From Haloferax mucosum ATCC BAA-1512 (GTDB taxonomy: Archaea > Halobacteriota > Halobacteria > Halobacteriales > Haloferacaceae), in assembly GCF_000337815.1 (NCBI RefSeq), contig NZ_AOLN01000010.1:124001-188000 (forward strand): a DNA stretch of 64,000 nucleotides, read 5' to 3'. The notes beneath the pieces are model-generated. The model did not search any database. It saw only the letters and a list, made by a program, of their open reading frames with translations, and had not been told where the DNA came from. Both the position numbers and the translations under genes were made by a program. Of the stretch, positions 20,948 through 35,405 are shown in pieces; within the stretch, counting starts at the first letter, position 1, and each line of letters opens with the position of its first letter.

Positions 20948-22126
<1,179 letters not shown>

Positions 22127-22160
22127 GCCGAGCGGCGCACTACCTCGGAGTTCGACGGAG

Positions 22161-22194
22161 TTTCGTGTTCTCTGGGGAATTTTCGTGTTCTCTG
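22161..22194 (+). repeat. 14-bp direct repeat in a convergent intergenic region
   Basis: TTTCGTGTTCTCTG occurs at 22161-22174 and again at 22181-22194, exactly 20 bases apart. It lies between ugpC and the convergent racemase gene; related sequence continues loosely downstream. No function is evident. Confidence 0.55.
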
Positions 22195-22292
22195 TCGAGT
22201 CCTTGTTCCAATAGGGAGTTCAGCGTTCCTCCGGAGAATTCCTGTTCGTCCGGGAAATTCCGTTTTCGATAGCGTTACGAGTTCACCGGGGG

Positions 22293-23033
22293 TTACCGCA
22301 CTTCTGCGTCGGCACGCAGACTGTACTCGACGGCTCGCTCGACGTGAAGCGCGGTCGTATCGAACATCGGAATCTCCGGTCTGTCGGACTGGTTGACGAG
22401 GAGTTCGATTTCCGTACAGCCGAGTACGATACCCTCTGCGCCGTCCGCGACGAGCGCGTCGATGGCGTCCAGATAGTAGTCTCGGGAGTCGTCACAGATG
22501 TCTCCTTTCGTCAACTCCTCGAAAATGATTCGGTCCACTTCCGGACAGTGCTCCTTGTCGGGAACGACGAGGTCGATACCGTGGTCGGCGAATCGGTCGC
22601 GGTAGAAGTCCTCCTGCATCGTGGCTTGCGTTCCGAGAACCCCGACAGTGTCGAGACCGGCGGCGCGGATGGCATCGGCGGCGACATCGACGATGTGGAC
22701 GAACGGGACAGCGAGCGCGTCGGTGATAGACGGTGCGACCTTGTGCATCGTGTTGGTAGCTAAGAGTACGAAATCGGCACCGGCGGCTTCGAGGTCGTGG
22801 GCGGCCGCGGCGAGATACGCTCCCGCTTCGTCCCACTGCTCCGATTGGATGAATCCCTTGATATCGGCGAAGTTGACGCTTCTAATCACGATATCGCCAG
22901 CGTGGTGGCCGCCGAGGCGGTCGTTGATTTCACTGTCGATATAGCGGTAGTATTCGACCGTCGATTGGCTACTCATTCCGCCGAGGATACCGATAGTTCG
23001 CGGATCGTCGAGCACGTCGCTCTGCCAACTCAT
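22293..23033 (-). CDS. Aspartate/glutamate racemase family protein, YgeA-like
   Basis: A 246-residue cofactor-independent racemase of the Asp/Glu racemase superfamily. The first catalytic motif is ATNTMHK, with Thr where classical racemases have Cys, and the second is LGCTEIELL with the catalytic Cys. The same Thr/Cys pair is known in E. coli YgeA, so a one-cysteine racemase for Asp/Glu-like or other amino acids is likely. GILGGMSSQSTVEYY at the N-terminus fits the family. It is followed by a divergently unrelated regulator on the same strand, 152 bases away. Confidence 0.9.
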   Translation of the reverse strand: MSWQSDVLDDPRTIGILGGMSSQSTVEYYRYIDSEINDRLGGHHAGDIVIRSVNFADIKGFIQSEQWDEAGAYLAAAAHDLEAAGADFVLLATNTMHKVAPSITDALAVPFVHIVDVAADAIRAAGLDTVGVLGTQATMQEDFYRDRFADHGIDLVVPDKEHCPEVDRIIFEELTKGDICDDSRDYYLDAIDALVADGAEGIVLGCTEIELLVNQSDRPEIPMFDTTALHVERAVEYSLRADAEVR

Positions 23034-23185
23034 GCAATCACCCGCTGGTTCTGCCGCCAGCGTTCACAACGTTCAGTCACGGTTCGAGCGTCAGTTGCAC
23101 CGAAGAGTGCTGACATACGATACCAAACGATTCGTTTGCACATCAGGTGTCGCCTCCCATGGGAGGGTCGAGAAACCAGACGCTA

Positions 23186-23896
23186 TCAGCGACTCATCAG
23201 CTTCGCTTCCGCCTTCCGAAGGTGCTCTAAAAACGTCGTCTTCGACACGTCGAGTTCGGCCGCTAACTGGCGCGCCGTCACCTCTCTCGGCCAGTTGTAG
23301 TAGCCGCGCTCGCGCGCCAGGTTTACCGCTTCGCGTTGTCGTGGGGTGAGCAGTTCCGTTCGGCCGGGTTTGGGTGGCCGTATCGGTTCGGACGCGGGCG
23401 AGATTTTCGTCACCGAGATGTCCGCGTCGCGGTCGTCTCGGATCTCGTCAAGCAGTCGGCCCAGCGATTCCCGCGAGGTGTGCGCGAGAAGGTTCCACGT
23501 CTCGACGCCATCCTCGATTCGGTACGAACTATCGACGAGCACGCCGCGCGTCAAGAATGCGGAGCCGATTCCCTCGTTTGCGACGTACTCGATGAACACG
23601 TCTTGGGTCGCGTGGCCGATTGCGGCGGGAACGGCGGTCTCGCTTGCGGCCCCGCCTATCGGTTCGATATGGTTGATAAATGAGAGTTCGTGTGCGACTT
23701 CGATTGCTTGCGTAACGTGTTCGTGTGACTCTCCGTAAATGGTACAGCGTTCGTACGCCGAGTTCCCCTCGACCGCCGCGCCATGACCGACGAGTCCACT
23801 CCCCGCCTCGGCCGTGGAGACGATACCCCAGCAGTCGGGATGCCAGACTTCGAGAGAGAGGTTGAGGAGTTCTTTTTCACGTTTCGATTCGGCCAT
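23186..23896 (-). CDS. Bacterio-opsin activator-type regulator (HTH_10)
   Basis: A 236-residue haloarchaeal regulator. The N-terminal part (about 1-155) is a small-ligand or sensor domain of the bacterio-opsin activator type. The C-terminus carries the HTH_10 DNA-binding domain, starting at LTPRQREAVNLARERGYY (about 182) and ending with the recognition helix around ELDVSKTTFLEHLRKAE. Such proteins control nearby metabolic genes; the racemase downstream is a candidate. The ligand is unknown. Confidence 0.9.
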   Translation of the reverse strand: MAESKREKELLNLSLEVWHPDCWGIVSTAEAGSGLVGHGAAVEGNSAYERCTIYGESHEHVTQAIEVAHELSFINHIEPIGGAASETAVPAAIGHATQDVFIEYVANEGIGSAFLTRGVLVDSSYRIEDGVETWNLLAHTSRESLGRLLDEIRDDRDADISVTKISPASEPIRPPKPGRTELLTPRQREAVNLARERGYYNWPREVTARQLAAELDVSKTTFLEHLRKAEAKLMSR

Positions 23897-24071
23897 TGTC
23901 GAGTCAACACATGCCGAGCAGGAAAACGTAGCGTTCGCGCGGCGATGGACAGTCAGTCATTCGGTCGCGTGGTGGGTGGTCCACCCGACGGCGTGACCGG
24001 TAGTTCGTTCGACCGCGTGGGAGTTCGACCGCGTGGGAAACCGATTCTCGCGTTCGCGCGTGTGTCTGGGG

Positions 24072-26408
24072 TTAGTTTCCACCGAGCACCCGCTTGAACA
24101 GCGTGAACGTGAGCAGGGTGAAAAACAGCCCGTTCAACATCCCTTGACTCGCCGCCAGCACACGAGCGGCTGGACCAATCGGGTTGATATCGCCGTAGCC
24201 GACCGTACTGAAGCTAATATAGCTGTAGTAGACGTTGTCGAAGAGGACTTCGAGTGCCGTCTTGTTGACCGCACCCGCCTCGAAAACACTCCCCGCTTGT
24301 GTCGCAAATGGTCCGCCGACGGCGTACAATAGCCCGAACACCGCCGGAAGCAAGAACGTGAAGATGGCGATTCGCGGAAGCCGGTTTCCGTAGCCACACG
24401 TCACCTGCATCAGGAGGTTGAGACCCGCGCTTGCGACCTTCTTACCGCGAGCCCACACGTTCAGCGAGTACTCGTTGATGATGATGTCGAAGTTCTTCTT
24501 GCGGTTGTAGTAGTAGCGCTTGAATTCGAACTCCCGGCTGGCGGGTGTGTCGCCGACCGCATCCGCGCTATCCTGTGCTTTTCGGTACGTCTCCTCGATG
24601 ATTTCGTGGTCCATCTCGACGGCGAACTGGCCGGTCGCGGTGTTGCCGACGAAGTCGTGAATCGTCCAGTCGTTTCGTTCGAGATAGCCGTGGTGGTCGC
24701 TGAAGTCGAAGCAGTCGAACTCGGTGAGACAGAATCTGAAGTGGTCGAGTAGTTCGTGGTCGTTGCCGTCGCCTTCGAGTTGGAGGTCGCCGATGGTCGC
24801 ACGGGTGAGGTCGTACGGGGTCGCCTCGCCGGAGACCTGCGAAATCGTCCCACCGCAGATGGTCGCGTCGGTGAAATCGAGGTACGTGTCACGCTCGCCG
24901 TTGCGGACGCGGAAGCGGGCGGTTTCGTGAAACACCGCACGGCGGAAGTCCGACTGCTCGTGGAACGTCGTCTCCCAGAACGAGGCGGTCGTGAAGTTCG
25001 CCGCTTCGAACTCGGCGGCGTCCTCGAAGACGGCTTCGTTGAACGACGCGTTCGCTTCGAGATGTTGCATCTCGCCTTCGAACAGCGCACCACGGAACTC
25101 GGCGGGGCCGTGAAACGTCGCGTTTCGGAAGCGTGCGTCCTCTTCGAATCTGACCTCGGTGAACCGCGCTCGTGCTTCGAAGGCGACATCCTCGAACGAA
25201 GCGTCGCCGCCGAACGTCGTCTCCTCGGCGACGACGTCGTCTTGGAGCGTGCTGTCGTCGAAATTGACGCCGCCGTTGAACGTTGCGAGCGAGAGGTTGA
25301 GTTCGCCGGCGATTCGGAGGCGGTGGCAATCCGCTCTCGCCGTGAACGTCGCGCGGTCGAAGTTGACCGCACCTTTGAACACCGCATCTTTGAAGTCCGA
25401 AAACCGGAAGCGAGCGAGTTTGTAGTCAGCCTCGCTTTCGAACGTCGCGCCCTCGAACGTCACGTCGTCGTGTGTCGTCCGACTACCGCCGTTGAACTCG
25501 ACGCCGCGGAACTCGGCCAACGCCATGAATCGACCGTCGGTGAAGCTGACGTCGTCGTCGAAGCGTGCCTCGTCGAAGTCGGCCATCTCCTGAAACGTCA
25601 CGTCGTCGAATCGGGCGTCGCCGTCGAACCTGACGTGTTCGAAGTCGGAACCAGCAGTGAACTGCGCGCGTTCGAACGTGACGTAATCGAACGTCGCCTG
25701 CCGGAAACTCGCGTCGCCGCGAAAGGTCGTATCGGCGAACGAGATGTGGTCGTTCAACACGTGGCTACTCCCGCTCGTCTCGATGTTTCGGAAGTTCGCC
25801 GCGCCGTGGAACGTCGTGTCCGCGAAGCTCGTGTCGGCCAAGAACGTCGTCTCGTCGCAGTGAACGTCCCCGTGAAAGACCGCGTCGTCGAACCAGACTT
25901 CCTGTTCGAACGTCGCCTCGTTCGTCGTCATCTCGTCTCGGACGGTCAGGTGCTGTGCATCGACGGTTCCCGTGAGAACCGCCTCCTTGAGCTTGAGCCG
26001 GCCGATGGTCGCCTCTCGGAGAATCAATCCCTGTTCGAGTTTGCCGTGCGTGAGGTCCAACCCTTCGATAGTCGCGTGCTGGAAGTTCAGCACGTGGTTG
26101 GTCTCACCGTTGACATCCTGATACGTGAGCGAGAGGTGCGGGAGGTCCGCGCCGACGTACTCGTTGACGCGGGTGTCCGACGACTGGAGATTCGCCCGGA
26201 GTTCTTCGACAATATCGTCACCCGAGACGTCGAGCGAGGTCCGCTCGTCCCGGCTCATGTGGAACACGCAGTGTTCGCTTTCGGGATGGGCCTCGTGGGG
26301 ACATTCCCACGTCGTTTGGAGGTGTGCGTCCGTCTGTATCGACGGGTCGAACGTGTACCGACACGTGGAGGAAGACATCAAAGCGGGTGTAGATTCATTT
26401 CTCGACAT
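24072..26408 (-). CDS. Pentapeptide-repeat protein fused to a two-helix ion channel
   Basis: A 778-residue protein. The N-terminus has a small Cys/His cluster (CPHEAHPESEHCVFH near 35-50). Residues about 100-600 are long runs of pentapeptide-like repeats (A-x-F-x-x with Phe at every fifth position), predicted to form a right-handed quadrilateral beta-helix. The C-terminal 150 or so residues contain two transmembrane helices around the potassium-channel filter TVGYGD (near 745). The large cytoplasmic beta-helix is likely a sensor or scaffold gating the pore. It is the last gene of a five-gene minus-strand cluster with a spermidine-synthase-like protein. An alternative start is Met 11. Confidence 0.85.
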   Translation of the reverse strand: MSRNESTPALMSSSTCRYTFDPSIQTDAHLQTTWECPHEAHPESEHCVFHMSRDERTSLDVSGDDIVEELRANLQSSDTRVNEYVGADLPHLSLTYQDVNGETNHVLNFQHATIEGLDLTHGKLEQGLILREATIGRLKLKEAVLTGTVDAQHLTVRDEMTTNEATFEQEVWFDDAVFHGDVHCDETTFLADTSFADTTFHGAANFRNIETSGSSHVLNDHISFADTTFRGDASFRQATFDYVTFERAQFTAGSDFEHVRFDGDARFDDVTFQEMADFDEARFDDDVSFTDGRFMALAEFRGVEFNGGSRTTHDDVTFEGATFESEADYKLARFRFSDFKDAVFKGAVNFDRATFTARADCHRLRIAGELNLSLATFNGGVNFDDSTLQDDVVAEETTFGGDASFEDVAFEARARFTEVRFEEDARFRNATFHGPAEFRGALFEGEMQHLEANASFNEAVFEDAAEFEAANFTTASFWETTFHEQSDFRRAVFHETARFRVRNGERDTYLDFTDATICGGTISQVSGEATPYDLTRATIGDLQLEGDGNDHELLDHFRFCLTEFDCFDFSDHHGYLERNDWTIHDFVGNTATGQFAVEMDHEIIEETYRKAQDSADAVGDTPASREFEFKRYYYNRKKNFDIIINEYSLNVWARGKKVASAGLNLLMQVTCGYGNRLPRIAIFTFLLPAVFGLLYAVGGPFATQAGSVFEAGAVNKTALEVLFDNVYYSYISFSTVGYGDINPIGPAARVLAASQGMLNGLFFTLLTFTLFKRVLGGN

Positions 26409-26517
26409 CGGTGGGGAGGCTCCTATCGAAATCTCGTTGGGTCGTGTTCGAATATCGGTTCGAGATTCGTACTTCGTTCATTTTCCGGGGTGTGTGATAT
26501 ATATCTTCGGACGACAG

Positions 26518-27471
26518 TCAGTCGAAGATGGTACGTCGTTCTCGTTCCGTGAGTTCGGCGCGAATCGCGTTCGGCGAGCAGTGTTCGCACTCGTGTGCGG
26601 GGTTGGTGCTCTGGTCGAAGGTCCAAACGGGATGGCCGAAGAGGAAAAACGCCTCCAGCTGGTGGCGCTCGATGATGGCCTCGGCCGCCTGTCCGCAGTT
26701 CGAACACCAGTCATCTCCGTCGTGCGGCACCTGAAACGTCACTTTCGTTCGGCCGAACCCGGCGTTCGAGTAGGCTTCGCTCCGCGACATCTCGACGAGG
26801 TCTTCGGCCGGGTACGGTTCGGCATCGACATCGTTGTCGAATCCGGTCTCGGTTTCGACAGTCGAAGAGAGGTACGGACCGACGTGGACGGTGTTGTCGT
26901 AGCCGACGAAGTGGATGGAAATTTCGGCACCTTTGCCATCGACACGAACGTCGTGGCCGTGGCCGACGAGATAGAGTTCGACGTCGCGGCGGACGTTAGC
27001 TAACTCGATGTCGTGAGACATCCCCACCGCATAGACACCTGCTTCTGGGTCGGTCGCGCGTCCCGACTGCTCCCAACCGAACGTCGAAACGTCGTAGGAG
27101 TCAGCATCGGCCGCGAGCGAGGTGTCGTCCGAGTAGACGTTTTCCGCACCGGGAGCAGAGACTGTGCCATCGACGGCGTCGGCCGAGATAAACACGTCTT
27201 CGGCGTGCGAAAGGAGCACGTCGCCGGGGACCGATTGGACGTATCCGTCTTCGATGGTGCCGGCGATTTCGGTTTCGGCGTCCGCGACCGCGTTGGAGCC
27301 GGTTACGGGCGAGTGCGTGAAGACGTATTCCGCGTTTTGGACGGTGAGGTCACCGTCGATGCTTTCAGCGCCGACGAACACGTCGGCGGGGTCTCGGAGT
27401 TCGACCGGTGGCTGTTCCGAGCCGTTGAGCGTCACGTCTCCGTCGTAGGAAGGCTGTGTGTTTTGTGTCAT
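26518..27471 (-). CDS. Uncharacterised protein with C-terminal zinc ribbon
   Basis: A 317-residue acidic protein of unknown family. Residues about 10-210 are short beta-rich repeats (strings such as GDLTVQNAEYVF and DNTVHVG), suggesting a beta-helix or beta-prism. The C-terminal region has CSNC and, about 35 residues later, CEHC, a likely zinc ribbon. No signal peptide or membrane segment is visible. It stands between the DUF2617-like gene and the channel gene in the same direction, so a role in the same stress or membrane process is plausible. Confidence 0.6.
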   Translation of the reverse strand: MTQNTQPSYDGDVTLNGSEQPPVELRDPADVFVGAESIDGDLTVQNAEYVFTHSPVTGSNAVADAETEIAGTIEDGYVQSVPGDVLLSHAEDVFISADAVDGTVSAPGAENVYSDDTSLAADADSYDVSTFGWEQSGRATDPEAGVYAVGMSHDIELANVRRDVELYLVGHGHDVRVDGKGAEISIHFVGYDNTVHVGPYLSSTVETETGFDNDVDAEPYPAEDLVEMSRSEAYSNAGFGRTKVTFQVPHDGDDWCSNCGQAAEAIIERHQLEAFFLFGHPVWTFDQSTNPAHECEHCSPNAIRAELTERERRTIFD

Positions 27472-27576
27472 GGATTGGATTTGAGTTGGGTTGGACTGTG
27501 TTGGGCAGGTTGGACTGTGTTGGGCAGGGTTGGATGGACTGGATTGAGGCGGGCGACTTTCGATTGAGTGTTGCGG

Positions 27577-28071
27577 CTACGGTTCGGGGTGCTTCGAATG
27601 CGGGTCGAGTTCGGTTCTCGTGTACAGCGCGAGGTCGTACTCGGGATAGGTGTGGTACGTCTCGTATCCGGACCCCGACGGTTCGACTCGGATGGTGGTC
27701 CACGCGTCAGGCCCAAACCGATACGAGATGCTCGATTCATTCGGGCCGGGGAACTCGTCGAGTGATTTCCCCTCGACCGTCGTGTGCGCGTCGAGATGGT
27801 CACTTTCGAATCGGAACTCGTGTTCGGCGTCAGCAACCAACGGTGTCTCGTGGGTCTGTTCTGACGGGAGCGGCTTACACGAACAGAGTTCGTGAAACTC
27901 CAGCGACGGCAGGCCGACGTAGTGAGACTCGCCGATGACGGTGAATACCGCGGGCGAATCCACCAACGTCGCCGGATGGACGGTTTTTACTTCGACTGAC
28001 GCCAGGTTCGGCACCTCGCTGGCGTAGCCGAAGTACAGTGCAGTCGGTGAGTCGTGGGGTTGGGAGGGCAT
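27577..28071 (-). CDS. DUF2617-like protein
   Basis: A 164-residue acidic cytoplasmic protein. The central GESHYVGL, the ELCSC strand and the C-terminal GYETYHTYPEYDLALYTRTE resemble the conserved W/H-YP...TR ending of DUF2617 proteins. In many bacteria that family is encoded with spermidine-synthase-like proteins, DUF350 and DUF4178 (recalled from published gene-neighbourhood work). Here too it lies one base after the spermidine-synthase-like gene. The biochemical role is unknown. Confidence 0.55.
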   Translation of the reverse strand: MPSQPHDSPTALYFGYASEVPNLASVEVKTVHPATLVDSPAVFTVIGESHYVGLPSLEFHELCSCKPLPSEQTHETPLVADAEHEFRFESDHLDAHTTVEGKSLDEFPGPNESSISYRFGPDAWTTIRVEPSGSGYETYHTYPEYDLALYTRTELDPHSKHPEP

Positions 28072-28072
28072 G

Positions 28073-29842
28073 TTAGGTATCGACGAGGATGTCGTAGTTC
28101 GGGTGGAAGATCGAGTTCACTCGCACGCCACGGTAGCGAGGAACTGCGTGCCATTTGACGGTTCGATACTGCTCGTGAGTCCGAACGTAAGCTGTTTCGC
28201 CGTCTCCTGTGAGCGGTCGGCGCTCACCAGGCGCGAACACGTAGAACTTCTCGACGCGTTCGGATTGGCCGTCGGAATCGAGGTCCTCACGAACCCAATA
28301 CGAAAGTTGGTTTGTGAATCCAGCGGTTCCGACCGTGTTGACGAACGCTTTGTGGTGCTGTGGGTAACTATCCGGAGAGTACCCCCACGTGGCGACGACA
28401 CCCTCGTCGGAGAGGTGGTTTCGAACGGAGCGGTAGAACTCCGCGGAATAGAGTGTGAGCAAGTCGTCGTCGGTCGCACCGGGGATGTCGAGAAGCACGA
28501 GGTCGTACGTCTCGTTCGTCTCTTGAAGGTAATGATAGCCGTCCGCGGTGGTCGTGTTCAACCTGTCGTACTCGTAGGCGTCGTCGTGCCACGTCCGGAA
28601 GAACGGGTCCGTTTTCGCCTGTTGCATGAACTCCCCGTCGAGGTCAACGTGGTCTACGGAGACGTCGTACTCTCGGAGGTGGTCAATCGCGATCCAGTCG
28701 CCGCCGCCGACGACGAGGACGTTCGTTTTGGGACCGGGTTCGACCAACGACATGGGGACATCGACGAGTCCCTGGTGATAGCTGTCCGCCCAGCTCTCAC
28801 ATAACTGGACCGCAGAGCCTAAACGAAGACACTGTTCGGTCCGGCCGGTGAAGTACGGATTCGGACCGGTTCCCGTCCACGTTCGGTTGTACCGGATGAC
28901 GTGTTGATACGTGGTCGTCTCCTGAGAAGTGACGGTTGCACGCATCGCACCCGGTGGATACCGGTTTTCTATCTGCTGTTCTAAGTAGAGTTCTGACAGT
29001 TGCTCGTCTGCGGTATCGTGTTTCGCAACCACACCCGCGTACGACGCGGTGAGAACGAGACAGACGACGAGAAGTGTCTTCGAGACGTGACCAATCGAGA
29101 GTTCACGAGAGGTCCGTTTGCCACCGCCGACAGGCCACCAAGCCCAGTCGCCGAAGTGAGCCACGAAGACCAACGCGGCGATGCCGTTCAGTAGTGCCAA
29201 CACGAATATCGTCGGAATCAGCCCGATACCCGGGTAGAGGACGCGGGCGTAGACGACCGCACCAGCGAGACCACCGACGTAGTCCATCGCCAGCACGAGC
29301 GACAGGCCGCTTCGCCGTCCGTCAGTTCGTTTGACATTCCAAACCGTGCCGAGAATCGAGACCATAATCTCGTGGATTTGGCCACACGTGCTTCGAAGCC
29401 AGTTCGGCATCGTCGCCTCTCCGTCTTCGAGTTCATCGACCATGTGGGTCAACAACGGAAGTTCGAAGCCGGAGAGGAAGCCGACGACCACGACTGGAAG
29501 GCGGGCCGTCATCCAGATGACTTCCGACGGAATCGACTGCGGAATGCGGACGCTGTTGAGCGCGACGATGAGCAGGAATCCTGCCGGTGCGACGGCGGCG
29601 AGGAACACCTCGGTTCGGAAGAAGTTCCCGCCGAGGTCCGTGGCATCGAGGTCATCCGAGAGCGCCGCACCGATGCCGAGACTGAAGAAGTACAGTCCGA
29701 CTGTGATGACGTACTGTGTCACGGTCCCACCGTACATCACCGTCAGCAGTTCGGAGTAGACGAACTCGTAGGCGAAGCTACAGAAGGAGACGACGAATGT
29801 GAGCGCCAGGAGCGTTCCGGTATCAGTTCGTGTGTTAGACAT
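28073..29842 (-). CDS. Membrane-bound spermidine synthase-like protein
   Basis: A 589-residue protein. The N-terminal half has about seven transmembrane segments. The C-terminal half (about 355-560) is a Rossmann methyltransferase-like domain of the spermidine synthase (aminopropyltransferase) type: VLVVGGGDW binds the nucleotide, VDLDGEFMQQA contains the ribose-binding acid, and VLLDIPGATDD corresponds to the catalytic aspartate loop. Canonical enzymes have GGGDG; the Trp here suggests altered substrate or cofactor use. Membrane-fused homologues are usually found with DUF2617 and related genes and are linked to envelope stress rather than bulk polyamine synthesis. Confidence 0.82.
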   Translation of the reverse strand: MSNTRTDTGTLLALTFVVSFCSFAYEFVYSELLTVMYGGTVTQYVITVGLYFFSLGIGAALSDDLDATDLGGNFFRTEVFLAAVAPAGFLLIVALNSVRIPQSIPSEVIWMTARLPVVVVGFLSGFELPLLTHMVDELEDGEATMPNWLRSTCGQIHEIMVSILGTVWNVKRTDGRRSGLSLVLAMDYVGGLAGAVVYARVLYPGIGLIPTIFVLALLNGIAALVFVAHFGDWAWWPVGGGKRTSRELSIGHVSKTLLVVCLVLTASYAGVVAKHDTADEQLSELYLEQQIENRYPPGAMRATVTSQETTTYQHVIRYNRTWTGTGPNPYFTGRTEQCLRLGSAVQLCESWADSYHQGLVDVPMSLVEPGPKTNVLVVGGGDWIAIDHLREYDVSVDHVDLDGEFMQQAKTDPFFRTWHDDAYEYDRLNTTTADGYHYLQETNETYDLVLLDIPGATDDDLLTLYSAEFYRSVRNHLSDEGVVATWGYSPDSYPQHHKAFVNTVGTAGFTNQLSYWVREDLDSDGQSERVEKFYVFAPGERRPLTGDGETAYVRTHEQYRTVKWHAVPRYRGVRVNSIFHPNYDILVDT

Positions 29843-29958
29843 CGTGAAAATCCGTGCGGGGTGACGGAACCATCAGTTGCGACTGCGACGTCGGCGATGA
29901 CGACCGCAGGGCAGTTGGTGACTGCGCTGTCGCGGCCAGTCACTGACCGCGAGCGTGT

Positions 29959-30675
29959 TCAAATCCGCGGTGAGACTTTCCACTGTTCTTCGATGGTGAA
30001 CTTCTCGTCACCGAGACCGGTGACTTCGAGGTCGTAACACTCCCAGCGGAAATCGTGGTCAGTGTCCGACCCGACGACGTGAGTACCGACGCGATACCAG
30101 CCATCACGGTTGAACTCGTTTCGGCTGGTGAGGTCGTACGCCACGGTGTCGTCGGGGTTGTCGAACGTCTCGTCCCACGCAACCGGACCGGCGTCCGGTG
30201 CGTCGTCTTTCATCGCCTCCGTAGAGCCAAGGTAGGCGATACCGAGGGCGGCGATACCGACGCCATACCGAGACACTTCGTTGCCGTGGTCTTCATACCA
30301 ATCGTCGGCGTAGTCGCCGCCGTAGAACCACGCGTGACCGTGCTTCGTTCGCGGGGCCGACGAGTATCCGCCGGAGCCGCGACCGGTGGCACCTCGCCCG
30401 CCGACACCGCCGCCTTTTCCTTTGGCGCTGGCGATGCCAATCGGACTGACACCTGAAATCGATTGGTGGTTTGGTTCGTACCGGGACATGACCCACGTCT
30501 CGTCGGCGAGGTCGATGACGAGAGAGCCATCGCTCGTCTCAAAATCCGCGACGACGCTGGACTTTCGCGGTGGAGGGGACTTGCTACCGAGGCATCCGGC
30601 CAGAGCACCGAGTGCTCCGAGACCGGACGTGTAGAGGAATTTGCGGCGACGCATACTCGTATTCATCTGGTTCAA
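29959..30675 (-). CDS. Tat-exported lipoprotein of unknown function
   Basis: A 238-residue protein with a twin-arginine motif (RRRKFL) and a lipobox LAGC near residue 28. Residues about 85-115 are a Gly-rich stretch (GGGVGGRGATGRGSGGYSS), possibly flexible. The C-terminal half has beta-rich segments (DDTVAYDLT, DHDFRWECYDLEV). No family recognised. It is the first gene of the five-gene cluster with the spermidine-synthase-like protein, 116 bases upstream of it, and probably acts on the outer face of the membrane. Confidence 0.75.
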   Translation of the reverse strand: MNQMNTSMRRRKFLYTSGLGALGALAGCLGSKSPPPRKSSVVADFETSDGSLVIDLADETWVMSRYEPNHQSISGVSPIGIASAKGKGGGVGGRGATGRGSGGYSSAPRTKHGHAWFYGGDYADDWYEDHGNEVSRYGVGIAALGIAYLGSTEAMKDDAPDAGPVAWDETFDNPDDTVAYDLTSRNEFNRDGWYRVGTHVVGSDTDHDFRWECYDLEVTGLGDEKFTIEEQWKVSPRI

Positions 30676-30776
30676 TCAGATAACGCGGATAACAGTCTTG
30701 TGGTTCAGAATGTCGTCGAGAGAGTTACAGTCGTTCGTCAACGTCCGGGAAATCCCAGTAAAGTTCGATGAAATGA

Positions 30777-30830
30777 GATAATTTGGACTTTTAGAATTCT
30801 TTGGATTATCTGGATTTCCCAGATAGTTCG
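30777..30830 (+). repeat. 9-bp-phased AT-rich array
   Basis: Six consecutive 9-bp units: GATAATTTG, GACTTTTAG, AATTCTTTG, GATTATCTG, GATTTCCCA, GATAGTTCG. Confidence 0.65.
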
Positions 30831-31048
30831 GGAGAGTTGCATAGCCCAGATGTTAGAGAGAACCGAGATAGTTGAGACTACGCAAATACGCTGAGTTGTG
30901 TGGAATAGGTGGCCCGAACGCGAGCAAACGAGGTAGGTGACAAGACAATATCAAAATAATAGCAAGATAATAGCAAGATAATATGGTTGACAAGGTATCC
31001 AACTGAGTCAGCTCTTTCGAGGGGCTGTAAATATTCAAACTAGACAGA

Positions 31049-31199
31049 CAATCCAAATTCTTAGAATTATTTAAATTATTTGAATGGCTGAGGGGGGTGT
31101 TAGCGCGGACGAAAGCTGGACGGTGCCAGAAGAAAAGAGATACGAGGCAACAGTAAATTATTCAAATTATGTAGATTTCTTAGGCTATTTAAGACATCC
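31049..31199 (+). repeat. Two 9-bp-phased AT-rich arrays
   Basis: The first block is 31049-31084 (CAATCCAAA, TTCTTAGAA, TTATTTAAA, TTATTTGAA). The second is 31155-31199 (AAATTATTC, AAATTATGT, AGATTTCTT, AGGCTATTT, AAGACATCC). Both keep the 9-bp step and lie just before the parA start. Confidence 0.65.
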
Positions 31200-31269
31200 A
31201 AAGGGCCAGGATAACCATAATTATTTCAAGAACGCCGAATATCTGGATAGTACGGATACCCTGCCCATT

Positions 31270-32133
31270 ATGTCACGCGCAGTCAGTGTTTGTCTACTCA
31301 AAGGCGGTATCGGCAAATCGACGACCTCGATCAACCTCACCCGCGAACTCGCACACCGCGGAAGCAACGTCCTCCTCGTTGACCTCGACCCGAACGGCCA
31401 TACGACGACCGGCCTCGGGTTCGGCGAGGAATTTTACTCGGAGTCGCATCTCGGAGACGTGCTCTTGGACGACGCGGACACCGAACCCCGGGAACTCATC
31501 TTAGAGACCGACTTCGAAATCGACCTCCTGCCCTCGAACGACCGCATCGAGCAGGTCGAGTCAGACCTCGGCGGCGTGATGATGGGTTCTGCGCGTCTCA
31601 AACAGCGCGTCGTCAATCCGCTTCTCGGAGACGAATACGACTACGTTGTCGTGGACTGTCCCGCCGCACGCGGAAAACTCAACGACAACGCCCTGTATGC
31701 GACGCAAAATCTGGTGTTGCCGATGCGTCCCGAGTCCGGGGCGCTCTCCGGTCTCGAAAAGACAGTCAAGCGTCTGATTCAGCCCGCACGAGAGCACTTC
31801 GACCTCGATATTCTCGCGGTGGTACCGACCGACCTCCGGGACCGAATCGACCACGACCGACCGACGCGGCGGCTCATCGAAGCCCTCGTTTCGAAACCGA
31901 ATATCGCTTCGAAACTCCCGGAGTTCGCGTATACGGACCCGTCGTTCTTCGAAGCGATCGACAACGGCACGTGGGATGACGACCTGCCAAAGCCTGGAAT
32001 CCGTCATCGGTCGGCAATCGACGCATCGATTCGAGACCACATGCCGCTACGCGACTACGACAGCTCGTGCGACCAACTCGAATGCTACGACGAACTCGCT
32101 CAAATCGTCGAAAACGGAGCTGTCAGCCGATGA
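31270..32133 (+). CDS. parA: ParA/Soj-family partition ATPase
   Basis: A 287-residue ATPase of the ParA/MinD superfamily with the deviant Walker A KGGIGKSTT (about 11-19), LLVDLDPNGH (Walker A' region) and VVVDCPAA (Walker B). ATG 31270 (MSRAVSVCLLKGG) is chosen; the in-frame extension from 31084 consists of repeat DNA. It overlaps the next gene by ATGA. Together they form a plasmid-partition operon beside the replication origin, which moves replicon copies to daughter cells. Confidence 0.92.
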   Translation: MSRAVSVCLLKGGIGKSTTSINLTRELAHRGSNVLLVDLDPNGHTTTGLGFGEEFYSESHLGDVLLDDADTEPRELILETDFEIDLLPSNDRIEQVESDLGGVMMGSARLKQRVVNPLLGDEYDYVVVDCPAARGKLNDNALYATQNLVLPMRPESGALSGLEKTVKRLIQPAREHFDLDILAVVPTDLRDRIDHDRPTRRLIEALVSKPNIASKLPEFAYTDPSFFEAIDNGTWDDDLPKPGIRHRSAIDASIRDHMPLRDYDSSCDQLECYDELAQIVENGAVSR

Positions 32134-32516
32134 GTGACGACCCGTTCGGTGACCTCGATGCCGCGATGGGCGACGAAAGCGACTCAGAATCCACCACTGA
32201 ACCCGAAGTAGACGACGGGGCACCGACAGCCGAGGAAACCGAATCCGACGTAGCCGACGAACCCGCAGACCCACGGAAAAGCCCGGCCTTCGAGTTCGAC
32301 GAAACGGTACACAAAGCCCTCTACGTTCTCGGAGCGGTCGCAACCGAGTTTGACGATATCATCACCTACGACGTGGAGCGCGAACTCACGCGAGACCACG
32401 GACTACAGAACATCAAAAAGAGCGAACTCCACAACGCCGCACTGTCTGTCGTTGCCGAGCACCCAGAGCTAATCGTTGAGCAGGTACTCGAACAGCGTGG
32501 TATCGACAGCGAATAA
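32130..32516 (+). CDS. Small acidic partner of ParA, probable partition protein
   Basis: A 128-residue protein starting at ATG 32130, inside the ParA stop (ATGA). The first 60 residues are acidic and low-complexity (DDPFGDLDAAMGDES...), probably disordered. The C-terminal half is helical (ALYVLGAVATEFDDIITYDVE..., with KKSELHNAALSVVAEHP). It has no ParB signature, but position suggests the DNA-binding adaptor of this ParA. Similar small partners follow parA on other haloarchaeal plasmids. Confidence 0.65.
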   Translation: MSDDPFGDLDAAMGDESDSESTTEPEVDDGAPTAEETESDVADEPADPRKSPAFEFDETVHKALYVLGAVATEFDDIITYDVERELTRDHGLQNIKKSELHNAALSVVAEHPELIVEQVLEQRGIDSE

Positions 32517-32520
32517 CGCA

Positions 32521-32583
32521 GATTAGTCGGGTAATTTGGTGGTTGAGGAAATTCAAGTTGGATAGATAACCCAGCTGGTTTAG
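32521..32583 (+). repeat. 9-bp-phased AT-rich array (degenerate)
   Basis: Seven 9-bp steps starting GATTAGTCG, GGTAATTTG, GTGGTTGAG, GAAATTCAA, immediately after the stop of the ParA partner. Confidence 0.5.
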
Positions 32584-32728
32584 GTTTTGTACGGTGCAGT
32601 GGGCAGACGAGTGCTGAGGACAGGCGAGCGTTGTGTGAGCCACGGTCGTGTCGTGGTGAGTCAGCCGAGAACCGGCCTCGAATCGTGGATTGGTCGTATC
32701 GAGTAGCGGCCGGCTCGGTACCGGAGAG

Positions 32729-32764
32729 GAATAATTTGGATTATTTAAAATATGTAGGATGATT
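32729..32764 (+). repeat. 9-bp-phased AT-rich array, short
   Basis: Four units: GAATAATTT, GGATTATTT, AAAATATGT, AGGATGATT. Confidence 0.55.
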
Positions 32765-32823
32765 TCTGGTGGTAAGAAACTGTGTTCGGTCGATTACAAT
32801 GGCCAAGTGGATTCGGTGGAAAC

Positions 32824-32913
32824 TTAGATAATTCAAACCTCTTAAATACTTTTGCTTATTTGAGTTCCTTAGATTATTTGGGTAATTTGAATTCTATGGA
32901 TAATTTGGAAGGG
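32824..32913 (+). repeat. 9-bp-phased AT-rich array, longest in window
   Basis: Ten 9-bp units, including TTAGATAAT, TTAAATACT, TTGAGTTCC, TTAGATTAT, TTGGGTAAT, TTGAATTCT, ATGGATAAT. The consensus is close to TTRGATWAT. Confidence 0.7.
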
Positions 32914-33000
32914 ATGAGGAAGGCCATCAGAGAAGGCTCAGAAGAGAGACGGATCGACAGGCCACTAGGCGGCCGCTATGAGTCGAACGCAGTGAGAGTG

Positions 33001-34233
33001 TTATTCAAGTGTCGAGATTCGACTATCCCGAAGCAACACTCGTTTGACAATATCCGGGTCTTCGAGTAGTCGGTGGGTCCCGTGAACGCCTTGTCCGCGT
33101 CCACGCCCGCGTACCTCCGACTGAATGACGTTGAGGAAGTCGAGTTCTTGTAGGAGTTCTTGGACCCGGCGTTCAGAGAGTTGGTCCATATCGAGGTCAT
33201 CTGCGACAGTGAGATACTGTCGATAGATTTTGTTCGTCGTGATTTCGGCGGTTTTTCGCCCGCCGGTTTGAAGCACGAGCGAGTAGAGAACGGCCTTCGA
33301 TTGCGTGGCGGTTCCTTCGAGGAGTTCGCTGAACCGGTCCGCCTCGCTTTTTTCTTTCGCCGCTCGAACGTGGTCGTCGGTCACCGTCTCGGCGCTTTCA
33401 TTACGGGCGATTCGTCCAGCGTTTCGGAGGATGTCGATCGCCTTCCGAGCGTCGCCGTGTTCCTGTGCCGCGAGCGCGCTTGCAAGCGGGATGACGTCGT
33501 CAGTGAGGACGCCGGGTTTGAACGCGTCCTTACGGTTTTCGAGGATTTCCCGGAGTTGATTCGCGTCGTACGACGGAAACACGAGTTCGTCGTGTGCGAA
33601 ACTCGATTTGACGCGCTCAGTTAGCTCTTCGGGATAGTCGATCTTGTTCGAAATGCCGATAATGCCAATCCGTGAATCGACTATTTTCTGGTTTTCACCT
33701 GCGCGAGAGAGTTTGCGAAGAACCTCGTCGTCCCGAAGCATGTCTATCTCGTCGAGGATGACGATAGCGACGTCAGAGCACGTGTCGAGGACCTGCCACA
33801 AACGGTTGTAGTAATCGCCGGTCGAAAGCCCGCGTTCGGGAATCGTCATGCCGCTTTTCGACGGATCGTTGACCTGCGATGCGAGTGTCTTGATAACCGA
33901 CGCCTCAGTATGTTGCTCCCCGCAGTCGATAACCGCGATTTTTACTTCGACGTCCTCCCGTGTCGCCTCGGTTTGCAGTCGCTCACTGACGAGTCGAGCA
34001 GTGAGCGTCTTCCCCGAACCAGTCTTCCCAAAGATAAACAGATGAGTCGGCTCTCGACCGAAAATTGCGGGGTTGAGCGCCTGTGCGACTTTCGACATGT
34101 GCTCGTCGCGGCCGACAATTTTGTCCGGGCCAGGTAGGTGTGAAATCTTGAGAATGTCCTCGTTCGCAAAGATAGGTTGATCGTATCGAAAGAGGGGATC
34201 ACGACCACCCCCGCCAGCCTCGTCAGATGTCAT
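33001..34233 (-). CDS. orc: Orc1/Cdc6-family replication initiator
   Basis: A 410-residue AAA+ initiator. Walker A GKTGSGKT is near residue 70, Walker B IVILDEIDML near 155, sensor 1 in GISNKID, and sensor 2 (GDARKAIDILRNAG) near 275. A C-terminal winged helix (about 320-400) should recognise origin repeats; its beta-hairpin region RGRGRGQG is notable. It is transcribed away from the iteron array that begins 48 bases upstream of its start, the classic haloarchaeal orc-ori pairing. It very likely binds those repeats. Confidence 0.95.
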   Translation of the reverse strand: MTSDEAGGGGRDPLFRYDQPIFANEDILKISHLPGPDKIVGRDEHMSKVAQALNPAIFGREPTHLFIFGKTGSGKTLTARLVSERLQTEATREDVEVKIAVIDCGEQHTEASVIKTLASQVNDPSKSGMTIPERGLSTGDYYNRLWQVLDTCSDVAIVILDEIDMLRDDEVLRKLSRAGENQKIVDSRIGIIGISNKIDYPEELTERVKSSFAHDELVFPSYDANQLREILENRKDAFKPGVLTDDVIPLASALAAQEHGDARKAIDILRNAGRIARNESAETVTDDHVRAAKEKSEADRFSELLEGTATQSKAVLYSLVLQTGGRKTAEITTNKIYRQYLTVADDLDMDQLSERRVQELLQELDFLNVIQSEVRGRGRGQGVHGTHRLLEDPDIVKRVLLRDSRISTLE

Positions 34234-34838
34234 ATGGGTTCGGTATTCATACTCACCAATAATAAAAGTGAGGGGGTGGACTCGCGTTTGTAACTATGGC
34301 AGATATGGCCGTCTGAACGGATGTATGTCAAAATCTACGTTTACTAAATACAGAGTGGCATCGCGCGAGTAACACTGTCAGACACCACCCTCGCGGATGT
34401 AACACGTGAAGCCGACCCTCCCGAAGAGAACTACGAGTGGGGTACACTCGCGTTTGTAACGTAGTCGTTGGAGACCACCCTCGCGGATGTAACACGGTGG
34501 GGAGTACCCTCGCGTTTGTAACGCGGTAGCGCCGAAGTTCCCGTTCAGACACACCACCCTCGCGTTTGTAACACGAATAAGTGAAGGAGAGTTCTCGCAG
34601 AAGACCCACTTCGGAGAGGATATTGCCGCTATATTTACAAACGCGAGGGGGGTGTGTTCAGATACTCTAGAGACTCTCGTAGCCGTTACAAACGCGAAGG
34701 TGGTGTGTGTGTGTACACTCTGAGGCCATACCATCGACTAGATTACAAGAAGCGAGAGTAAATCCCACAGCAGTCCTAGTCACCCGTTTCGCTACAACCG
34801 TACAACTAACGACTACTAGTCAAGTACCAACCAAAACG
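34234..34838. other. Replication origin region
   Basis: About 600 bases between the orc and TBP genes with no gene. It carries at least eight copies of an origin-recognition-like repeat (34281-34699), seven pointing one way and the last two reversed, as expected for an Orc1/Cdc6-dependent origin. Frames through it (34328-34609, 34378-34734 on minus) simply read the repeats. Confidence 0.8.
34281..34699. repeat. Origin-recognition (ORB-like) repeat array
   Basis: The core CTCGCGTTTGTAAC or CTCGCGGATGTAAC is found on plus at 34281-34294, 34390-34403, 34447-34460, 34480-34493, 34509-34522 and 34559-34572, with a degenerate copy near 34361. Reverse copies are at 34634-34647 (one mismatch) and 34685-34699. 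Several are preceded by ACCACC or GTAC. The two sequence versions (GTTTG and GGATG) alternate in the forward set. Confidence 0.85.
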
Positions 34839-35405
34839 TCAACCAAGTAGTCCCAGCTCACGAACGTCGGAATCAACAACTTCGAGTGCCGATTCCGCGT
34901 CAGCAACCGCTTCAGCGCCTGTAATCACGATTTTACCGCTTCCAAACATGAGGATAACGACATTCGGTTCGTCGAGACGGTAGACGAGTCCGGGAAACTG
35001 CTCGGGTTCGTACTCGACGGCTTCGAGACCAAGTCCAATTGCAAGCGCGTTCAGGTTGAGCGCTCCACCGAGGTCGGCACTCGATACGATATTTTGGATG
35101 GTTGGACTCGGGTCGTCCGGAACGGGAACACCAAGTGAGTCCAGTTCGTCGAACAGCGTTTCGATTGCCGCGTTTACGTCTGTAACACTATCTGCACCGG
35201 TACAGACGATTTTCCCGGACCGGAACACGAGACAAGCGGCTTTCGGGTCGTGGGTTCGATAGACGAGTCCGGGAAAATTCTCCGGGTCGTAATCCGTGCT
35301 GGACATATCGAGTGAGAGGCGGTCCAAATCGAGCTCGAAGCTAACCTCGGTCGAAGCAACGACATTCTGCACTTCGACCGACCTCGCAACGTTTGCGCGC
35401 GACAT
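34839..35405 (-). CDS. tbp: TATA-binding protein (TBP)
   Basis: A 188-residue TBP with the two direct repeats of the saddle fold. Each has the FPGLVYR strand (PENFPGLVYRTHDPKAACLVF and PEQFPGLVYRLDEPNVVILMF) and the GKIVxTGA motif. The general transcription factor binds TATA boxes and recruits TFB and RNA polymerase. Haloarchaea carry several TBPs, some on plasmids. This one lies directly beside the origin, so it may set up transcription of replicon-specific promoters. The C-terminus is the usual acidic helix. Confidence 0.95.
   Translation of the reverse strand: MSRANVARSVEVQNVVASTEVSFELDLDRLSLDMSSTDYDPENFPGLVYRTHDPKAACLVFRSGKIVCTGADSVTDVNAAIETLFDELDSLGVPVPDDPSPTIQNIVSSADLGGALNLNALAIGLGLEAVEYEPEQFPGLVYRLDEPNVVILMFGSGKIVITGAEAVADAESALEVVDSDVRELGLLG

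Follow-up and report, generated by a model that had tools for sequence, protein, structure and literature searches.

The DUF2617 protein encoded in a 64,000-nucleotide stretch of the Haloferax mucosum ATCC BAA-1512 genome (contig NZ_AOLN01000010.1, positions 124,001 to 188,000; hereafter the window) is probably a fused, single-chain S-adenosylmethionine (SAM, AdoMet) decarboxylase (AdoMetDC), which would supply decarboxylated SAM (dcSAM) to the spermidine-synthase-like (SpeE-like) membrane protein encoded beside it. Genetic linkage of the two genes, conservation of residues, remote similarity to AdoMetDC and absence of the ordinary decarboxylase SpeD were observed. We propose the activity because the predicted structure, an in-register profile alignment, the runner-up Pfam family and residue conservation agree with each other. 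It is the reading of DUF2617 as a fused AdoMet decarboxylase that is new; the genes themselves and the GGGDW motif of the SpeE-like protein are ordinary.

The two genes belong to five co-directional open reading frames (ORFs) on the minus strand at 24072-30675, which encode, in order, a lipoprotein, the SpeE-like protein, the DUF2617 protein, a zinc-ribbon beta protein and a fusion of pentapeptide repeats with a potassium channel. A preliminary description of the window had listed these genes as one cluster, and a neighborhood survey of 292 Halobacteria genomes showed that they are indeed conserved together in haloarchaea. Cluster-type membrane SpeE, defined by a match above 300 bits (the next unrelated match had 59.6 bits), was found in 42/292 genomes, DUF2617 was also found in 42/292, and the two genome lists are identical; residue counts out of 42 given below refer to these cluster-bearing genomes or loci. 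The lipoprotein, SpeE and DUF2617 genes are contiguous on one strand in 41 of the 42 loci, and a contig end divides the remaining locus (L109). Near this trio, 41/42 loci have the zinc-ribbon protein and 40/42 the channel; both vary in position, and their genes lie on the opposite strand in 15 and 5 loci, respectively. Since these two genes shift place and strand, SpeE-DUF2617 and the lipoprotein form the core of the cluster and the zinc-ribbon protein and channel are looser partners. An earlier scan of 22 haloarchaeal contigs with SpeE detected the lipoprotein adjoining SpeE in every one; 21 had DUF2617 and the zinc-ribbon protein (the L041 contig ends; L052 copies are broken or partial), and 17 had the channel. 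A single base separates the SpeE and DUF2617 genes in the window. In the 41 loci where the spacing could be measured, the DUF2617 domain begins between -31 and 122 nt from the SpeE stop, and in 30 of them this gap is 3 nt or less. Twelve plasmid records carry the cluster SpeE with DUF2617, and the pair is therefore often plasmid-borne. A tblastn search of plasmids for DUF2617 returned matches in haloarchaea only and no bacterial DUF2617.

Spermidine synthase requires decarboxylated SAM. Homologs of SpeD (PF02675) were identified in two of the 292 Halobacteria and in 0/42 cluster genomes, a result confirmed with a second profile, and in 74 of 196 genomes from a wider draw of the phylum, so the SpeD search works. 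One haloarchaeal genome, G138 (L144, L061), shows an alternative pairing in which an ordinary speD adjoins a SpeE of soluble size, with no DUF2617. Among 14 control genomes, SpeE was detected in 11, SpeD in eight and DUF2617 in two (Corynebacterium glutamicum, which also carries DUF350 and DUF4178, and Haloferax volcanii), with zero overlap between SpeD and DUF2617. Three of the controls have SpeE without SpeD, among them Lactococcus lactis, which has no DUF2617. Two related bacterial SpeE operons include speD, and DUF2617 is not annotated in them. The gap itself has been pointed out before: halophiles are described as having no AdoMet decarboxylase, the putrescine-binding residues of the two SpeE homologs are described as non-conserved, and the source of dcSAM in haloarchaea, given SpeE homologs without that enzyme, was raised as a question (PMC5178350). 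Similarly, Mycobacterium tuberculosis has a spermidine synthase and no recognizable AdoMet decarboxylase, the "most glaring omission", and homogenates of M. bovis showed AdoMet decarboxylase activity, the enzyme not being known (PMC524486). The DUF2617 protein of M. tuberculosis (CCP45394.1) is reported beside DUF4247 in SpeE-type operons (PMC11237479). In the excerpts of the literature searched for DUF2617, we found no link between this family and AdoMetDC.

The window's DUF2617 protein has 164 residues (27577..28071, minus strand) and scores 28.4 bits against PF10936 (cut-off 22.3) over profile positions 23-158 of 160, which agrees with its earlier labeling as DUF2617-like. An AlphaFold model built with 15 sequences has a pLDDT of 91.8. 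When this model was compared with 999 PDB chains using VIA, the top six rows were all AdoMetDC (Z 8.0, 6.4, 6.4, 6.1, 5.7 and 5.5), and the next row had Z 4.8. The best row was human 1msv (root mean square deviation 3.8, 135 aligned residues), although its Z of about 8 is close to values reachable by unrelated models; Trypanosoma brucei and Thermotoga maritima AdoMetDC followed. As a control, the model of the 317-residue zinc-ribbon beta protein had no AdoMetDC among the best 50 VIA matches listed.

Profile-profile comparison used hhalign with 42-44 DUF2617 sequences against 31 SpeDs and 100 column shuffles as the null. The C-terminal half of DUF2617 matched SpeD with E 4e-6 and a score of 36.3 with 42 sequences (shuffle maximum 17.7, n=100), and with 44 sequences the score was 35.0 against a best shuffle of 26.4. 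In this register F119, T125 and H140-T-Y-P-E144 fall on SpeD F49, S55 and H68-T-W-P-E72, the T. maritima numbering being taken from the PDB sequence. The N-terminal half gave a marginal match (E 0.0035, 42 sequences) placing I-G-E-S49-H50 and C65 on SpeD E62-S63-H64 and C83. The hhalign probability was 72-79 with the 42-44 sequences and 28 with a smaller alignment; for the other cluster proteins (A1, A3, A4) against SpeD it was 0.1-0.2. Scanned against Pfam (24,736 models, E<=10), 15 DUF2617 proteins matched DUF2617 (15/15), AdoMet_dc (1/15) and nothing else, the AdoMet_dc match (PF02675) having an E of 0.16 that does not reach the curated cut-off. The class 2 model PF01536 did not match DUF2617, and since the same search matched no control either, it is uninformative. 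No similarity was detected between the N- and C-terminal halves of DUF2617, and we infer a duplication through SpeD only.

Ser49, His50, Cys65, Phe119, Thr125, His140, Tyr142 and Glu144 are each invariant in 42/42 loci. Judging from the alignment, Ser49 (27925..27930 with residue 48, minus strand like the other sites; E-S-H, as T. maritima E62-S63-H64) would be the pyruvoyl serine behind a predicted self-cleavage site and Cys65 (27877..27879; T. maritima C83) the proposed catalytic cysteine, 16 residues further on. Likewise, Thr125 (27697..27699), which falls on the S of GVSG in SpeD and is the putative equivalent of T. maritima Ser55 and human Ser229, and His140 (H140-T-Y-P-E144, 27640..27654; SpeD H68-T-W-P-E72) would be the processing Ser/Thr and processing His. 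SpeD F49, W70 and E72, which align with F119, Y142 and E144, are residues that we take to be substrate contacts. Essential residues of T. maritima SpeD are S63, H68 and C83 (PMC10407285); in human AdoMetDC S68, S229 and H243 hold matching roles, and S229 has its T. maritima analogue in S55, although a T. maritima S55A protein was still activated (PMC3975893). T. brucei AdoMetDC carries its pyruvoyl at residue 86 and the cysteine at residue 100 (PMC5201418). DUF2617 has been described with two conserved His, one Asp and one Glu (PMC11237479). Both His and the Glu are present in haloarchaeal DUF2617, and there is no invariant Asp.

To gain an indirect view of the residues of bacterial DUF2617, we changed the window protein one residue at a time and scored each variant against PF10936, presumably a mainly bacterial profile. 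Score losses, in bits, were 3.3 for S49, 7.1 for H50, 5.3 for E61, 6.0 for C65 (C65A), 2.7 for F119, 3.0 for T125 and 5.7 for P143, and the match was lost altogether at H140 and Y142. Substitutions at C63 and E144 had little weight (-0.6 each). By this measure, conservation across the wider DUF2617 family seems to cover the Ser, Cys, Thr and His and to leave out the Glu.

The partner protein (589 residues; 28073..29842, minus strand) has a multi-transmembrane N-terminus followed by a PRK03612-like SpeE domain at about residues 330-515. Its earlier description as a membrane aminopropyltransferase-like protein holds, as PF01564 (Spermine_synth) matches at 55.1 bits (cut-off 22.9) behind an N-terminus that is hydrophobic by hydropathy. 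Against the PRK03612 equivalog it scores 199.8 bits, below the cut-off of 472; hence we do not call it a spermidine synthase. GGGD382, Y355, D400, D434 and D452 are each present in 42/42, and position 383 is W in 29 and Y in 13. Compared with two SpeEs from bacterial operons, YHE has become YHxG and D-x-P-D-P has become D-x-P-G-A. With the donor- and acceptor-site roles that we assume for these residues, the donor site is likely intact and the acceptor site changed. The preliminary description had taken GGGDW (residues 379-383; 28694..28708, minus strand) in place of GGGDG as a sign of non-standard chemistry. The motif is real, as GGGD(W/Y) in 42/42, but what it points to is a likely change of acceptor and not of donor, because DUF2617 looks like a maker of the usual donor.

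GGGD(W/Y) is already in print for HVO_B0357 of Haloferax volcanii, for which an altered polyamine specificity was suggested (PMC6267482). This protein shares its seven transmembrane segments and motif with the window SpeE (PMC5178350, PMC6267482), and on motif and genus it is very likely the orthologue; the excerpts of both papers treat it alone, without DUF2617 or a cluster. The pair Cys338/Cys348 of the SpeE-like protein is also invariant (42/42) and likely flanks a hairpin just before the active-site motif, a position that would suit a cross-strand disulfide or a redox switch. A second SpeE-like membrane protein (G000:C11:241418-241753, L002) is HVO_0255-like, with a GGGGF motif and no DUF2617 partner, and most Halobacteria matched in the SpeE search gave only weak, HVO_0255-like matches.

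Taken together, the cluster is probably a membrane aminopropyl-transfer module. DUF2617 would be a cryptic AdoMet decarboxylase with two SpeD-like halves in one chain, the N-terminal half giving Ser49, which would become the pyruvoyl group after self-cleavage, and Cys65, and the C-terminal half giving Thr125, His140 and Glu144. It would decarboxylate SAM, after which the co-encoded SpeE-like protein would pass on the aminopropyl group. Putrescine is an improbable acceptor; agmatine, cadaverine or a group bound to the membrane are candidates. The products of the other three genes may be envelope partners. A broader version of this proposal, to which we give even chances, is that DUF2617 is a third structural class of AdoMetDC, compact, fused and prokaryotic, that it is the dcSAM source of haloarchaea as well as of mycobacteria and corynebacteria, and that the membrane aminopropyltransferase modifies an envelope component and does not make free spermidine.

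Several points weigh against reading DUF2617 as an AdoMetDC. The signal of the N-terminal half was exceeded by one of 100 shuffles with 42 sequences (0/100 with 44), residue 48 is Glu in just 16/42 loci, and PF10936 favors Gln over Glu at position 144 (Gln +0.9). The SpeD sequence profile matches DUF2617 in 0/42 genomes; in a set of 44 genomes it matched the two SpeD genomes (G138, G089) and gave three chance matches (E 0.5-2) outside DUF2617. The DUF2617 profile matched nothing among PDB sequences at E<=10, and Foldseek listed 50 matches for the model, none of them an AdoMetDC, and found no match below 0.001. Strands, six in each half, make up nearly the whole model, which has hardly any helix and lacks those of AdoMetDC; DUF2617 would have to be a stripped-down version of the enzyme. 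Given this and the modest Z, we treat the AdoMetDC fold as a candidate assignment. Because the N-terminal half has no equivalent of H68 and the C-terminal half none of Ser63 or Cys83, the active site must be composite. In Hfx. volcanii, agmatine and cadaverine were present and spermidine was not, and deletion of HVO_B0357 gave no phenotype (PMC5178350). A sentence in PMC11237479 on operons encoding AdoMet decarboxylase and polyamine oxidase would also count here if it covers the DUF2617 variant; it is ambiguous, being placed after the band-7 variant.

One alternative is that DUF2617 is unrelated to AdoMetDC and the cluster is an envelope-stress module, the SpeE-like protein being a pseudoenzyme or a SAM-using protein. 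Failing sequence-profile searches, modest VIA Z values, changed SpeE acceptor residues and the lack of spermidine in Hfx. volcanii (PMC5178350) would all fit, yet the four concurring lines of evidence named at the outset and the invariant donor-site residues D382 and D452 make it unlikely. Another possibility is a SpeD-fold pyruvoyl decarboxylase of ornithine, arginine or lysine, which would provide the acceptor amine and not dcSAM. Its catalytic residues would be kept unchanged, and evolution has repeatedly turned SpeD homologs into decarboxylases of ornithine or arginine (PMC10407285). We consider this improbable, as the presumed substrate-contact positions F119, Y142 and E144 are 42/42, the occurrence of speD itself in the related bacterial SpeE operons favors a dcSAM role, and Hfx. 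volcanii has HVO_1958, whose deletion results in an agmatine auxotroph (PMC5178350). It is more doubtful still that DUF2617 has the AdoMetDC fold and, without catalytic activity, serves the SpeE-like protein as a partner or sensor: all of its processing and catalytic positions are invariant, whereas the trypanosome prozyme that it would resemble is described without key residues (PMC5201418). The same source shows that catalytically dead AdoMetDC paralogues exist, and strict 1:1 pairing with SpeE is what an obligate subunit would show as well.

If DUF2617 is a fused AdoMetDC, its closest parallel is the eukaryotic class 2 enzyme (human and T. brucei; 1msv, 6bm7, 5tvm), the best VIA match, which also has two SpeD halves per chain, with the pyruvoyl Ser and catalytic Cys in the N-terminal half and the processing Ser/His in the C-terminal half. 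DUF2617 differs in being about half as long, nearly all-beta and prokaryotic. Eukaryotic AdoMetDC is regarded as two fused class 1b proteins with a C-terminal domain lacking the cleavage site, and prokaryotes do not seem to have an extant fusion of two genuine SpeDs (PMC10407285). Class 1b SpeD (PF02675; T. maritima 1tlu) shares the ESH...TCG and F...S...HTWPE motifs aligned to the DUF2617 halves; it has one half per chain, whereas DUF2617 splits the motifs between its halves.

The preliminary description had also placed bacterial DUF2617 and membrane SpeE-like proteins in envelope-stress neighborhoods, and PMC11237479 does describe DUF2617, DUF350, DUF4178 and 7TM-SpeE in such PSP-linked settings. 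These operons (DUF2617/DUF4247/DUF4178/DUF350/7TM-SpeE) have in common with the haloarchaeal cluster DUF2617, a membrane SpeE-like gene, a lipoprotein and a potassium channel. The haloarchaeal cluster differs in having the beta-rich zinc-ribbon protein and the pentapeptide channel and in lacking DUF350 and DUF4178, for which the suggested profile searches found 0/42 cluster-bearing genomes each. The section of PMC11237479 on these operons terms DUF2617 a predicted beta-sandwich enzyme, without a link to AdoMetDC.

The remaining cluster genes, all on the minus strand, were as previously described. The Tat-type lipoprotein (about 231 residues, 29959..30654) has an ORF of 238 residues that stays open to a TTG at 30675, the ATG at 30654 being the more likely start; its RR signal and lipobox-like Cys are invariant in 16 aligned rows, and a Pfam search matched no family. 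The 317-residue beta-rich repeat protein (26518..27471) ends in a zinc-ribbon-like CxxC...CxxC, both pairs being invariant in the alignment. It shows a weak DUF3060 match in 15/15 homologs (best E 6.8e-5); some homologs also match zinc-ribbon models, and the structure model of the protein (pLDDT 87.9) gave generic beta-helix matches only. The 778-residue fusion (24072..26408) combines a pentapeptide beta-helix (Pentapeptide_3, 168 bits) with a C-terminal potassium-channel pore (Ion_trans_2, 37.6 bits) and a TVGYGD selectivity filter at residues 735-740 (24189..24206); the preliminary description had suggested that the beta-helix may gate the pore. Relatives at L053, L054, L056, L063 and L064 have TVGYGD, TIGYGG or TIGYGN, and this variation may change the potassium selectivity of the channel. 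A 598-residue antisense ORF (24756-26552, plus strand) overlapping the channel gene was taken as a codon-bias artefact. As to an anti-phage role, PADLOC gave just a weak mad2 match, on the methyltransferase-like part of SpeE. Rfam had no match across window positions 22000-33000. Beyond the cluster, direct and inverted repeats with the core CCCTCGCGTTTGTAACG at 34273-34711 adjoin an orc1/cdc6 gene (33001-34233) and are probably a replication origin with ORB elements. A ParA gene (31084-32133) is found near the orc1/cdc6 gene and the repeats, and a TATA-binding-protein gene with two TATA-binding-protein repeats (34839-35405) is near the presumed origin.

The DUF2617 candidate adjoins SpeE and keeps every catalytic position, which makes the missing decarboxylases of haloarchaea and M. 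tuberculosis testable with a single purified protein. If the proposal is true, a family that has had no assigned role would acquire one, and the fused enzyme of eukaryotes would have a counterpart in prokaryotes.

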